Shown: positions 58,955-64,000 of the stretch, piece by piece
How positions within the stretch are numbered: the stretch's first letter is position 1
How the letters are laid out: each line of letters begins with the position of its first letter
Assembly (NCBI RefSeq): GCF_017876575.1
Contig: NZ_JAGIOE010000001.1
Span: 4,010,443 to 4,074,442, forward strand
DNA: 64,000 nt
Source of the DNA: Paeniglutamicibacter psychrophenolicus
Lineage (GTDB): Bacteria; Actinomycetota; Actinomycetes; Actinomycetales; Micrococcaceae
Direction of reading: 5' to 3'
Position numbers and translations under genes: made by a program
Notes under the pieces: generated by a model
Told to the model about the DNA's origin: nothing
What the model saw: the letters and a program-made list of their open reading frames with translations, nothing else
Databases searched by the model: none

Positions 58955-59569
58955 TCATCGCTCGTGCATGCCCCTGTGGGCGCGCATCTCCGAGGAAATG
59001 ATGCTCAGGTCGAACTCCACGTCCGGACTCGTCCAGATCTCCACCAGGGTGGAGGTGGCGTCCTCGGTGCCCCCGCCGCCCTCGGCGGCACGGCAAGGCT
59101 CCAAATCGTAGCGGGCCACCTCGGAACCACGGACGTTCAGCGACCGGATGGTCAGCGGCGCCTCGATCTCGCAGCCGGCCAGGATCCACAGCAGCGCGCC
59201 GGATCGTTGGGCCGGCAGCACGATCCTGGCCTCGCCCTTGCCGTGGAAGTGCATCAGGACCTTTTCGCTGCCGGGCAGGGCCCCGGGCAGCGGGCTCTTG
59301 CCTTCGGCAATGAGTTCGGCATGGGTCGGGCGCCTGGTGCCCACGCCGGGTTCTTGCGGGGACGGGGTCACGGGGAAGACCCGGGTTTCGGGGATGAAGG
59401 ACGGCCCGGTAACCGGCGGGCCGGGCTCGTCAGAGGGTATGGGCTCTACATTGAGCGGGGTGCACCCGGCGGCCAGGCACACCAAGCCAAGCAGGGCCGC
59501 CAGGGCCAGCGGATGAAGCCCGGCCCGGGTACGGCGGGTCGGGCCCGATGCGCGCGAGAATTCCTTCAT
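58955..59569 (-). CDS. Lipoprotein of unknown function, paralogue A
   Basis: This exported lipoprotein of 204 residues has a basic N-terminus, a hydrophobic stretch LALAALLGLVCLAAG and lipobox LAAGC, then a Pro-rich linker. The mature domain (about residues 75-204) has LPGALPGSEKVLMHFHGKGE, then ARIVLPAQRSGALLWILAGC, paired Cys residues and an acidic end. The same core is found in the gene directly upstream. The ribosome-binding site GAGGAACGG overlaps that gene's TGA (9-base gap), so the two are translationally coupled. I know no family name. Confidence 0.78.
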   Translation of the reverse strand: MKEFSRASGPTRRTRAGLHPLALAALLGLVCLAAGCTPLNVEPIPSDEPGPPVTGPSFIPETRVFPVTPSPQEPGVGTRRPTHAELIAEGKSPLPGALPGSEKVLMHFHGKGEARIVLPAQRSGALLWILAGCEIEAPLTIRSLNVRGSEVARYDLEPCRAAEGGGGTEDATSTLVEIWTSPDVEFDLSIISSEMRAHRGMHER

Positions 59570-59578
59570 GTCCGTTCC

Positions 59579-60184
59579 TCACCTCAGGAATTTTCGCGGC
59601 CAGCGGGTGCCTGCCCGGTCATCGGCGTTCGCGAGCTGGCCGGAGACCAGCGTGAAATGCATCGGGGAGCCGTTCGGGATGGTGAGGACGCCCCTGGTTT
59701 CCGTGGTGTCCAGCGGCCCGGCCACCAGGTCGGTCGCCGGGCAGTGGTCCGACGAGTACATGAGCGTGGTGCGGCCGGCGGCATCGAATGCCAGCAGCGA
59801 CAGCGGAACCGGCCGTCGGCACCGCACGGCGATCCACAGGTACACGCTCTTGGCCCGGGCCGGGAGGGCGAAGGAGAAGCCGCGGCTTCGCTCGACACTG
59901 AGCAGGACCTGCTCGGAACCCGGGACGGCACCGGCCAGCGGGTGTTCGCCGGAGCGCAGCAGCTCCTCGATGCTGCGCGATGCCTGTTGTGGGTCCGGCG
60001 CAGCCGACATGGTGGGGGTGGCGACGGCCGGCGGAAGCATGGCAACGGGTGGCCGGGGCGCGGGGCGGGACGACGGCTCGGTGGTGGCCACATCCACGTC
60101 ATCGACCACCGCGGTGCACCCCGAAAGGCTGGAGGCAAGTGTGATGGCGACCATGAGATCAAGCGCCCAGTGCTTCTTGTCCAA
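59579..60184 (-). CDS. Lipoprotein of unknown function, paralogue B
   Basis: This exported lipoprotein is a tandem paralogue of the gene that follows. Core LAGAVPGSEQVLLSVERSRG and FSFALPARAKSVYLWIAVRC aligns with the other core, including PGSExVL and the C after a W-containing strand. Lipobox LSGC lies about 30 residues after the start. The start is uncertain. I use TTG at 60184 (201 residues), which gives a basic-then-hydrophobic signal KKHWALDLMVAITLASSLSG; ATG at 60154 would lose the positive charges, and longer ATG/GTG starts add non-signal sequence. It lies 191 bases downstream of the small secreted-protein gene on the same strand. Confidence 0.68.
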   Translation of the reverse strand: MDKKHWALDLMVAITLASSLSGCTAVVDDVDVATTEPSSRPAPRPPVAMLPPAVATPTMSAAPDPQQASRSIEELLRSGEHPLAGAVPGSEQVLLSVERSRGFSFALPARAKSVYLWIAVRCRRPVPLSLLAFDAAGRTTLMYSSDHCPATDLVAGPLDTTETRGVLTIPNGSPMHFTLVSGQLANADDRAGTRWPRKFLR

Positions 60185-60375: not shown

Positions 60376-60678
60376 TCATTTCGGGGACACCAGGGTCTTT
60401 CCACCTTGGCCCGGAAGGACCGTGAAATGGGCCGGGCCCTGTTCAGGCTTACGCAGCCACGGCGGCGTACCGACCCCGTCACCGGCGGGACAGACGCAAC
60501 GAACCACTTGCCCCTCAACCCCTGGCAGCACGCAAAAGTACCTCGTTGTCTCTTGGATCGTCGTCACAGTCGGTTCCGGGTCTATCGTTGCCATCGCGGA
60601 TAGAGAGCCCAGACCCGTCAAAAACAGTGTGCTGGCAGCCAAGCCGATGACCCCGGACGCCTTGTGTGGGAAATACAT
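60376..60678 (-). CDS. Small secreted Cys-containing protein
   Basis: This 100-residue exported protein starts at the ATG at 60678, AAGGAGG four bases upstream. Signal peptide about residues 1-30 (HKASGVIGLAASTLFLTGLG, then SLSAMA). The mature part holds YFC-N10/11-RCVC, a DGVGTPPWL motif and a basic C-terminus, suggesting a disulfide-stabilised domain. It has no family I recognise. The frame at 63868-64000 ends in a similar C...C...GV..P.W pattern. First gene of the run leading to the two lipoproteins, divergent from the LuxR-type regulator across 154 bases. Confidence 0.75.
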   Translation of the reverse strand: MYFPHKASGVIGLAASTLFLTGLGSLSAMATIDPEPTVTTIQETTRYFCVLPGVEGQVVRCVCPAGDGVGTPPWLRKPEQGPAHFTVLPGQGGKTLVSPK

Positions 60679-60832
60679 GGTGCCTCCTTCCATATTTCCT
60701 GAATTCGATACCTCAACGCTGCTCTCGGACACCGTGTTCCGGCATCGGAACCTGACCCCCAGATCAGGAGGCCACCCCCTCAGATTCCGGGCGCTCTCGT
60801 TTGAGGGGTCCTGAGGTGCCACACTGGTCCAT

Positions 60833-63763
60833 ATGGCCCCCGATCGTGAATGGAGCGGCCCGGAACTCGTGGGTCGCTCCCTGGAACTGGATCTCATTGG
60901 CGACACGCTGCACAGCGCCGTCGCCCATACCGCGGACACCCTGGTGGTTTCCGGGGACCCGGGCGTTGGAAAGACGGCATTGGTCAGGCAGGCCTGCGCA
61001 AGGACGGATCCCGCGACATTGGTCCTGGTGGGCGAGGCCCTGCCCTTGGCGTCGGTAAACCTCCCCTTCCTCCCCCTGCGCACAGCATTCCGCGATGCCC
61101 GTCTCCAGGAAGGTTTCCCCCGGCCCGTATTCGGATCCGGCGGCCAGGCAACAAATGATTCCATTGCGGCCATCGACAACTGGCTGTCGGTGATCAGCCG
61201 GGCCCGACCGGTCGTGCTGGTGATCGATGACCTGCATTGGGCCGACGAGGCCACCCTCGACACCCTGCGGTATCTCATCGCGGGGCCCCGCGACAGGCCC
61301 CTGTCCATCCTCGCCACCGTGCGCAACGGCGCGGTCGGCGGCGAGCACCCGTTGCAGCGCTGGCTGGCGGATGTCCGAAGCATGCCACGTGTTTCCTGGC
61401 TGCCGCTGAGGCCACTGGACTACGCGGCGACGGGGGCCCAGCTGGCCCAGGCGCTGGGTGCGGAACCGCACCAGTCCTTGATCAGCGAGGTTTTTTCGCA
61501 CACGGCCGGGAACCCCTACCTGAACCGGCTGATGGTTTCCGGTCTGCCGGCGGACTCGCGGCACCTGCCCCCACGCCTACCGCCGGACCTGAGAGCGGCG
61601 GTCCTGCGATCCTGGCATTCGCTTTCGCCCCAGGCGCGCGAGCTCACCGAGGTGATGGCCGTCGGCGGGCATCCGATGCGCGCCGAGGACCTGGATGAGC
61701 TGGTACAGCAACCAGCGGCACGCGACGAGGCACCGGCGCTCTTGGACGAGGCGGCGGCCGCGGGAATCACCGACCGCCAACCCGGCGGAATCCTGTGGTG
61801 GTTCCACCATCCGCTCATCGCCGAGGTCCTCGAACAGCGACTCGAGGACGGACATCGACGGCGGTTGCACGCGGCATTCGCGGCACACGAGGCCAGGCTG
61901 CTGGATCGCGGGTCCCCCGCGGATTTCGAGACCCTGGCCGCCTTGGCCCACCACCATGATGCTGCCGGGAACACTGCCGACGCCTTCGCGTGGACCCTGC
62001 GCGCCGCAGCGGCCGCCACCGAAGCCGGCGGAATGGGCGGTGAAGTGCGCCTGCTGCGCCGCGCCCTGGAGCTCCAGGGCAGCCTCGGCCACGACCCGCA
62101 GGAACGTGAAGCGCTGCTCAAGTCCTTGCGCGCCGCCGCGGCAAACGCCGGGGCCATGGAAGACGAGCTGGAAGTCATCGAGGCCTTGATCGCGGAGACC
62201 GCCGCCGCACATCGGCCGCTTGAGCTGGCCGAATTGCTGGTGCGGGATGCCGAGCTGCGCTTCACCACCGGCCGGGAGTTCCTGGCACGTGCCCGGATGC
62301 AGCGCGCCGTCGAACTGGCCGGTGCGGATGTGGACAGCCGGCAATATGCCCTGGCCCTGGCCGGGCTTGCCGCCGCCGAGTTGTGGAACAACGAACCCCG
62401 CGGCGCCGCCCATGCATCCGAGGCCCTGGCCGCCGCCCGGCGGCCGGGCAATTCCCGGGCCCTGTCGTCCGCCCTGAGCGCCAACGCCATGGCCGCCATC
62501 GCCACCGGTGACCTGGCCCGGTGCCGCGAGCTGTCGGTGACGGCGGTGGAAGCAGCGGCACACACCCGGGATTTCTGGGCCTTGTTCAGCGCCATCATGT
62601 GGCAGGCAAGCGCCACGGAGGCCTGGGACAGCCAGCCCTATATCGATTGCCTCGAGGCCGGGCGCCAGACCCTGGCCGGGTTGGGGGCCCCGCACGTGTA
62701 CATCGCCACGATTTCCGGATACATGGCAAGCAGCTACATGGCCATTGGCCGGTGGAAGGAATGCGGCCTGGCGCTTCGCGTGGCCCTGGGATCGGACCCC
62801 GGGGTCATGGGAGACGCCGGGGTCCGGCTGACGGCCGCCCGGCTGGCGCTGTGGCAGGGCAGGCAACACGAGGCGGAAACACACCTGGCCCGCGCCGAGG
62901 AGATATCGGCGCAGAAGTCCGAGTTCATGAACCTTCCCTTTGATCCCGTCAGGGCCGAGGTCTTTCTGGCGGCGGGCAATCCCGGCGCGGCCTATGAGAT
63001 TGCCATGCGAAACGCCAACCCCGAACGCATGGGCCGGAACATGAACGAATGGAAGCTGCCGCTGGCCGCCCGCGCACTGGCCGACCTCATCGAAAGAGCC
63101 AAGGGCGAGGGCCGGCCCACAGAGGAGCTGTTGGCGCTCGCCGACGACCTGCTGCGGCGTTTCCCCAGCCTGCCGCACGAGGCCTTCGAATCCGAGCTGT
63201 ACACCCGGCAGCTGGAGGCCTTCACCCTGCTGTACCGGGCCGAGATCGGCCGTGCCCGTTCGGCCCCCGGGAACCCGGAAGAATGGGTAGTGGCCGCTGA
63301 CGCATTCCGGGACACATCGCTTTGCTGGGAGGAAGCCTATGCCTGTTGGCGGGCCGTGGAGGCCCTGCTGGTGCCTTCGGGCACCGATCGCGCCAAGGCC
63401 ACCGAATTCCTTCGCCGCGGACTTGGGCTGTCTCGGCAGCTCCAGGCGCTTCCGCTCCTCACCGCGCTGCAGGAAATTGCCGCCCAGGCCAGGATCGCCA
63501 CGCTCGGCCCGGTCCCGGGATCCCCTGCGGGCGGCTCGGTGCAATGGCCGGGCCTGACCGTGCGCGAACGGGAGCTGCTTGGCCATGTGGTCTCCGGTGC
63601 CACCTACGCCCAGATCGCCCGGGCGTTGGACATCAGCGAGAAGACCGTCAGCACGCACGTGTCGAGCATGCTGCGCAAGACGGGCACGGCAAACCGCAAG
63701 GAACTCTCCCGGCTGGTCACGGGCCAGGCAAACGCCCGGGCCCCCGGGCACGGCGGGCCCTGA
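60833..63763 (+). CDS. LuxR-type regulator with AAA/STAND ATPase and TPR-like region (LAL/MalT-like)
   Basis: This large transcription activator has 976 residues. An N-terminal ATPase has Walker A GDPGVGKT at residues 41-48 and Walker B VVLVIDDLHWAD near 128-138. A long helical region of TPR-like sequence spans about 330-890. The C-terminal LuxR HTH lies around 908-966 (LTVRERELLGHVVSGATYAQ; ARALDISEKTVSTHVSSMLR). Such LAL proteins bind an inducer and then activate nearby genes. It is divergent from the small secreted protein/lipoprotein operon, and a second secreted-protein-like gene ends 105 bases past its stop. The ribosome-binding site is weak. Confidence 0.9.
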   Translation: MAPDREWSGPELVGRSLELDLIGDTLHSAVAHTADTLVVSGDPGVGKTALVRQACARTDPATLVLVGEALPLASVNLPFLPLRTAFRDARLQEGFPRPVFGSGGQATNDSIAAIDNWLSVISRARPVVLVIDDLHWADEATLDTLRYLIAGPRDRPLSILATVRNGAVGGEHPLQRWLADVRSMPRVSWLPLRPLDYAATGAQLAQALGAEPHQSLISEVFSHTAGNPYLNRLMVSGLPADSRHLPPRLPPDLRAAVLRSWHSLSPQARELTEVMAVGGHPMRAEDLDELVQQPAARDEAPALLDEAAAAGITDRQPGGILWWFHHPLIAEVLEQRLEDGHRRRLHAAFAAHEARLLDRGSPADFETLAALAHHHDAAGNTADAFAWTLRAAAAATEAGGMGGEVRLLRRALELQGSLGHDPQEREALLKSLRAAAANAGAMEDELEVIEALIAETAAAHRPLELAELLVRDAELRFTTGREFLARARMQRAVELAGADVDSRQYALALAGLAAAELWNNEPRGAAHASEALAAARRPGNSRALSSALSANAMAAIATGDLARCRELSVTAVEAAAHTRDFWALFSAIMWQASATEAWDSQPYIDCLEAGRQTLAGLGAPHVYIATISGYMASSYMAIGRWKECGLALRVALGSDPGVMGDAGVRLTAARLALWQGRQHEAETHLARAEEISAQKSEFMNLPFDPVRAEVFLAAGNPGAAYEIAMRNANPERMGRNMNEWKLPLAARALADLIERAKGEGRPTEELLALADDLLRRFPSLPHEAFESELYTRQLEAFTLLYRAEIGRARSAPGNPEEWVVAADAFRDTSLCWEEAYACWRAVEALLVPSGTDRAKATEFLRRGLGLSRQLQALPLLTALQEIAAQARIATLGPVPGSPAGGSVQWPGLTVRERELLGHVVSGATYAQIARALDISEKTVSTHVSSMLRKTGTANRKELSRLVTGQANARAPGHGGP

Positions 63764-63817
63764 GCAGGCCACCGGCGGCAGGACACCGCGGTCCACGCGT
63801 GTCTTGGACCCGACATG

Positions 63818-63853
63818 GGCTTGCCGGCCGGGCCGAAGCCCGGCCGGCAAGCC
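63818..63853. terminator. Perfect hairpin between regulator and secreted-protein gene
   Basis: A 16-base perfect GC-rich stem (GGCTTGCCGGCCGGGC and its complement) with a 4-base loop lies between the two convergent stop codons (63763 and 63868). No T-run is visible on either side. Confidence 0.75.
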
Positions 63854-63867
63854 GGTGTCGTTGATGC

Positions 63868-64000
63868 CTAACGCTCGGGGACCCAGGACGGGGCCACGAC
63901 GCCGGCCCCGGTCAGGCTGTCGCAGTGGACCAGTTGCGTTCCGATCCGTGTCAGCGAACACGTGGAGGTATCCGTGGTGACGGTGCTGACCGTGGTTTGT
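63868..64000 (-). CDS. C-terminal part of a secreted-protein-like gene (start outside window)
   Basis: The last 43 codons read TTVSTVTTDTSTCSLTRIGT, then QLVHCDSLTGAGVVAPSWVP and ER before a TAG at 63868-63870. The pattern C-N10-C, followed by a GAGVxxPxW segment, resembles that of the small secreted protein at 60376-60678. The frame is open to the right edge of the window, so the start, and any signal peptide, lies beyond position 64000. Confidence 0.6.
   Translation of the reverse strand, partial: QTTVSTVTTDTSTCSLTRIGTQLVHCDSLTGAGVVAPSWVPER

Follow-up and report, generated by a model that had tools for sequence, protein, structure and literature searches.

A MalT-type LAL regulator and a small secreted-type peptide form a conserved gene pair, duplicated in tandem, in bacteria related to Arthrobacter

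We analyzed a stretch of 64,000 nucleotides (nt) from the forward strand of a 4.9-Mb genome (G000:C1:4010443-4074442, hereafter the window), the nearest named relatives of which are Arthrobacter sp. C2, Paeniglutamicibacter psychrophenolicus CC174 and Arthrobacter sp. AQ5-05, and focused our attention on a gene for a large LuxR/LAL regulator (LAL1) and on the small Cys-containing protein (S1) encoded next to it. Domains and coordinates bear out the initial annotation, which had described a LAL-type regulator divergent from the gene of an exported protein of 100 residues (Table 1). It had also seen the regulator as bracketed by two similar small proteins, the second of which, S2, runs over the window edge. 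Extending the sequence rightwards gave the whole of S2, a protein of 84 amino acids (aa) with a signal peptide recognizable by inspection, which aligns with S1, and, directly outside the window (window-equivalent 64270-67203), a second regulator gene, LAL2, encoding 977 aa with 58% identity to LAL1. As S2 is transcribed divergently from this regulator of its own, in the order S1 <- -> LAL1, S2 <- -> LAL2, the bracketing has to be given up, and the sequence shows that the locus consists of a module of two genes (for a peptide of secreted type and a MalT-type LuxR/LAL regulator, with a predicted operator between them) duplicated in tandem; the window contains one copy and the edge of the second. 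In the regulator tree, LAL1 and LAL2 separate by duplication at the root of the genus clade, and the stem leading to LAL1 is long (0.33 vs 0.078); LAL1 evolves fast, as does its partner S1.

Table 1. Position of the module and of its neighbouring genes in the window
Feature	Position	Strand	Basis or remarks
S1, 100-aa secreted-type Cys peptide, diverged paralogue with 20-aa C-terminal extension	60376-60678	-	family profile E 9.8e-28
Operator-like conserved element in the S1-LAL1 intergenic region	60743-60786	+	CATCGG-N7-ACCCCCAGAT ... CCCCCTCAGATT; pair of direct repeats with 21-bp spacing
LAL1, 976-aa MalT-type STAND regulator	60833-63763	+	AAA/NTPase, helical repeat region, GerE HTH
S2, 84 aa, C-terminal part in window	63868-64000 (whole gene window-equivalent 63868-64122)	-	MYSARKTTRFAGLVFASLAVALAASSPAYGQLDPGG...CSLTRIGTQLVHCDSLTGAGVVAPSWVPER
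LP1 lipoprotein, lipobox LSGC; neighbour outside module	59579-60154	-	multi-copy family in genus
LP2 lipoprotein, lipobox LAAGC, LP1 paralogue; neighbour outside module	58955-59569	-	homology to LP1

LAL1 has the size (about 900 aa) and the two terminal domains of a LAL protein, namely an N-terminal AAA_16 NTPase (residues 11-159, Pfam E 1.3e-21) with intact Walker A (GDPGVGKT) and Walker B (VLVIDD; LVIDDLHWAD) motifs, the glycines and lysine of the former being invariant, and a C-terminal LuxR/GerE helix-turn-helix (HTH; residues 908-961, E 1.6e-14; PDB match to GerE, E 4.4e-12). The AlphaFold2 model (mean predicted local distance difference test score, pLDDT, of 81.2) follows the layout NTPase, superhelix and HTH, with helical repeats over residues 361-884. 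Its top Foldseek match is 6mfv, a STAND protein with tetratricopeptide repeats (TPRs; E 1.8e-11), and domain III of MalT (1hz4) was matched as well (TMt 0.69, E 9e-5). The model therefore places between NTPase and HTH the superhelical TPR-like sensor domain that marks MalT-type STAND proteins; Pfam returned no TPR match, so that the TPR-like fold is seen by structure only, and no SARP/BTAD match. By sequence and predicted fold, LAL1 is a MalT-type LAL. Among the LALs the HTH is 90-95% identical versus 62-71% for the helical region, in line with a conserved target site.

The N-terminus of S1 appears to be of the Sec type by inspection (K6, a hydrophobic stretch, and AMA followed by T). Its resemblance to S2, initially judged by eye, is a true homology, since the two proteins align end to end (29% identity, pairwise E 7e-4) and match one family profile (E 1e-27 to 1e-31, both sequences belonging to the profile's own alignment). 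Both have a Cys pair 11 residues apart, and S1 has a third Cys. Members of the family share a signal-peptide-like N-terminus, a variable linker and a core of about 30 residues, C-x3-RIGxQLxRCDxLTGAGxxAPxWIPE; n, h and AxA-like regions are visible by inspection in the aligned intact members. Orthologues of S1 are present in the sister genomes G005, G007 and G009, and over the four genomes the core shows a pN of 0.025 against a pS of 0.22, so that S1 is a real gene under purifying selection. In the genome sets searched, all of them partial samples, the peptide profile had matches at E <= 1e-3 in 36 of the 395 Micrococcaceae genomes (the weakest four, with partial profile coverage, are doubtful); the order-wide sample added the families f3 and f4, and the class-wide sample a single genome of family f34. 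No significant match to the peptide was found in Pfam, NCBIfam or PDB models, nor any in plasmid and phage collections; as judged from sequence comparison, it is an undescribed family. Peptides of genus g10 (L089-L093, L097, L099) have the conserved core CPLERIGTQLVRCDNLTGxGxxAPxWIPEQK with neither a LAL-clade gene nearby nor an operator; such a gene is also missing genome-wide, except in G343, and the neighbours are varied (a LuxR-HTH protein, ANTAR proteins, SRPBCC proteins), with no consistent partner.

As the initial annotation had anticipated, regulator and secreted-protein gene co-occur in relatives. A divergent peptide gene lies beside all ten LAL-clade genes of the genus, and the same holds for the further Micrococcaceae members examined except G209, with a median spacing of 148 bp (range 143-191 bp, 28 loci). 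The two genes are also paired in families f3, f4 and f34, being divergent in L135, L137, L138 and L139, on the same strand in L136 and tail-to-tail in L071/L100; kept as it is across orientations, the pairing points to a functional link rather than to a frozen promoter. Moreover, in G068, G195 and G212 both LAL and peptide are broken. Regulator and small secreted protein can thus be regarded as a real, conserved functional pair. It had been suggested at the outset that the regulator senses or controls the secreted factor: control of the peptide is most likely, and sensing is possible with the evidence, weighed below, leaning against it. A search for this LAL-peptide pair in the open literature, where most subscription papers are absent, returned nothing. 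In G209, the region upstream of the LAL (about positions 996-1420 of L034) has a divergent gene for a small secreted-type protein of another kind, which lacks the conserved core. The LAL-clade gene of this genome is accompanied by a near-perfect copy of the element described next (CATCGGG and two CACCCTGAGAT repeats, about two helical turns apart).

When aligned, the intergenic regions of about 148 bp were found to have CATCSGG-N6-CCCTSAGAA-N12-CCCTSAGATT in common. Its two direct repeats are spaced by 21 bp and precede the LAL start by approximately 50 and 70 bp. With a position weight matrix (PWM), held-out loci scored 22.6-57.9, whereas nothing in 58 kb of the window, with both strands scanned, scored above -0.1, and of 200 dinucleotide shuffles only 0 to 7 reached the observed repeat score at 25 of the 28 loci (17-24 at the other three). 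In the whole genome, allowing at most three mismatches, the element occurs only at the two module loci, and a reversed control pattern occurs nowhere; the repeat pair alone, at up to two mismatches, gave one additional weak site. The element accompanies the LAL across genera and into families f3 and f4. G1086 (L136) has its LAL in a non-divergent orientation, with the start about 0.9 kb away, and here the element stands upstream of the peptide. Where the LAL has been lost, the repeats are missing or decayed while the peptide persists: at peptides of LAL-less genomes the element was not found (PWM scores of at most 2.1), and in G064 CATCGGGA is retained and the repeats have decayed. On the LAL side, TGnGAAACT, which resembles an extended -10, is followed by six bases and then by the start codon (GTG in most members), a distance that suggests a leaderless LAL transcript.

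Four sister species have LAL1 and its operator in two strongly diverged allelic forms, {G000, G007} versus {G005, G009}, with 60-82% nt identity, as was observed when window positions 60673-63806 were compared with L103 (G009), L104 (G007) and L105 (G005). In the same species, S1 is approximately 90% identical, and S2, LAL2 and the flanks are mostly above 90%. Synonymous divergence (dS) of LAL1 was 0.12 versus 0.83, where that of LAL2 was about 0.2, and the LAL1 alleles disagree with the relationships shown by LAL2. Since the breakpoints fall at the S1 start codon and just beyond the LAL1 stop, the variable part is the regulator with its site, and not the peptide. The presence of two such different versions of the regulator at one fixed locus suggests that selection acts on its sensing.

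Based on these results, we consider it reasonably probable that each LAL works as a dedicated switch, which would bind the CCCTSAGA repeats and drive its peptide, the latter acting outside the cell. Peptide and regulator would be transcribed divergently from the control region of about 150 bp. The NTPase and helical sensor region of the LAL would detect a cue, and the protein would then bind the two direct repeats, probably as an oligomer, as their 21-bp spacing corresponds to two helical turns. Once bound, it would activate the peptide promoter and perhaps its own, activation rather than repression being the most likely mode by likeness to MalT. The peptide would be exported by Sec, would probably form a disulfide-closed hairpin (C-x11-C) followed by the nearly invariant tail LTGAGxxAPxWIPE, and would act extracellularly on a conserved partner. 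MalT is reported to bind two direct-repeat sites upstream of its target promoter, and such a pair of sites has been proposed for TpdR of Rhodococcus jostii (PMC6099782); with these regulators the present proteins also share the N-terminal P-loop NTPase, the helical sensor region with the fold of MalT domain III and the C-terminal GerE HTH; however, the predicted target here is a secreted peptide, single and local, and the repeat is CCCTSAGA, whereas those regulators serve catabolic or biosynthetic operons. PimR, a SARP-LAL (PMC5930380), is similarly a large NTPase regulator with one target and direct repeats, but its repeat period is 11 bp rather than 21 bp, and it lacks the C-terminal LuxR HTH, presumably the DNA-binding part of the LALs described here, which in turn have no SARP domain.

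Several observations weigh against such a switch. No operator was found at the peptide of G711, where the LAL is 43% identical and tail-to-tail. Some genomes retain the peptide without any LAL-clade gene, so that other controls of it must exist. The correlation of LAL and peptide divergence over pairwise distances (r = 0.82, with 0 of 5000 permutations as high), which in itself speaks for the switch, partly reflects shared species history. With respect to the hairpin, the AlphaFold2 model of the peptide, in which two short strands lie between the two Cys, is of low confidence (mean pLDDT of 55.6). Moreover, both Cys are gone in the G143 homologue and at least the first one in G980, hence a disulfide is not obligatory; the joint replacement of the two in G143 (by A and G) is what would be expected of residues that normally pair. 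Finally, the role of the element might be repression, or autoregulation of the LAL, instead.

The most serious competitor of the switch, which we nevertheless regard as unlikely, is a pheromone circuit of the RRNPP kind, in which the secreted propeptide, after maturation and uptake into the cell, would bind to the helical region of the cognate LAL, and the LAL would then activate the peptide gene in a positive feedback. Pheromone receptors usually diversify together with short C-terminal peptides. The correlated divergence of LAL and peptide would fit such a circuit, as would the dedicated operator, with no other targets found, and the adjacency of the gene for a small, apparently Sec-type propeptide to that of an intracellular DNA-binding regulator with a TPR-like superhelix, resembling PlcR-PapR and Rgg-SHP. 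RRNPP systems are described as having a propeptide of 10-100 aa, with a Sec signal as called by SignalP, that adjoins a receptor of 250-500 aa with TPRs (PMC10075063); the peptides, with 84 and 100 aa and a spacing of 143-191 bp, agree with this description in size and adjacency, but LAL1, with 976 aa, is about twice the size of such receptors and carries a STAND NTPase. Furthermore, in place of a short variable C-terminal signal, which is absent, there is a long Cys-containing core of about 30 residues that is nearly invariant across genera and families; peptides with an intact core persist in genomes without a LAL; and in G209 it is an unrelated product of secreted type that accompanies the LAL and the operator. 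LAL1 and its operator also differ strongly among sister species when S1 changes little. For these last reasons, namely its survival without a LAL and the variation of regulator and operator rather than of S1, the peptide is probably what the switch delivers, and not its ligand. The broader proposition, that a peptide signalling system of Actinomycetota uses a MalT-type STAND regulator as intracellular receptor of its own secreted peptide, appears to us doubtful; if it were true, the extreme divergence of the LAL1 alleles would reflect selection on signal recognition.

We give little credence to the peptide being a bacteriocin-like antagonist induced by the LAL: it is small, secreted-type, Cys-containing, patchy in distribution and provided with a dedicated regulator, yet neither an immunity gene nor an exporter is conserved beside the pair, plasmids and phages gave no match, and the extreme conservation of the core is unlike that of arms-race toxins. 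Even less probable is that the element controls the LAL only, with the peptide gene as a mere neighbour, because the position of the repeats ahead of an extended -10 and a seemingly leaderless start, which would suit autoregulation, has to be set against an adjacency held in four families and three gene orientations, against the L136 element lying upstream of the peptide and far from the LAL start, and against the joint decay of the two genes.

With regard to the surroundings of the module, the two lipoprotein genes annotated after S1 are indeed present and mutually homologous (E 4e-15). The surface receptor or immunity pair that they had been taken for was rejected, as they belong to a multi-copy family with carriers that lack such a LAL (other Paeniglutamicibacter genomes) and, following S1 in three of the four tandem-locus genomes, have their homologues on another contig in G009. 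They were not found beside the LAL-peptide pair in the Arthrobacter genomes examined, and LP1 and LP2 are, on this comparative evidence, unrelated neighbours outside the module. Several tandem copies of the paired family are located at a second locus (G000:C1:1940855-1949457), and as LP1 is 89% identical to one of them (G000:C1:1942066), the pair next to S1 seems to have been duplicated or relocated recently. Carriage of the locus as mobile-element cargo was discarded as well, given the lack of a match in plasmid and phage collections and the synteny of the locus within the genus.

LAL regulators are common in Actinomycetota and, to our knowledge, most of them have no known target or inducer. 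In the clade described here, a single dedicated target (as predicted), a putative operator of 44 bp and an undescribed, strongly conserved family of secreted-type peptides make up a compact system, joined in a previously undescribed two-gene module that is carried by soil bacteria related to Arthrobacter. With such a system, the cue of the regulator and the role of the peptide become directly testable.

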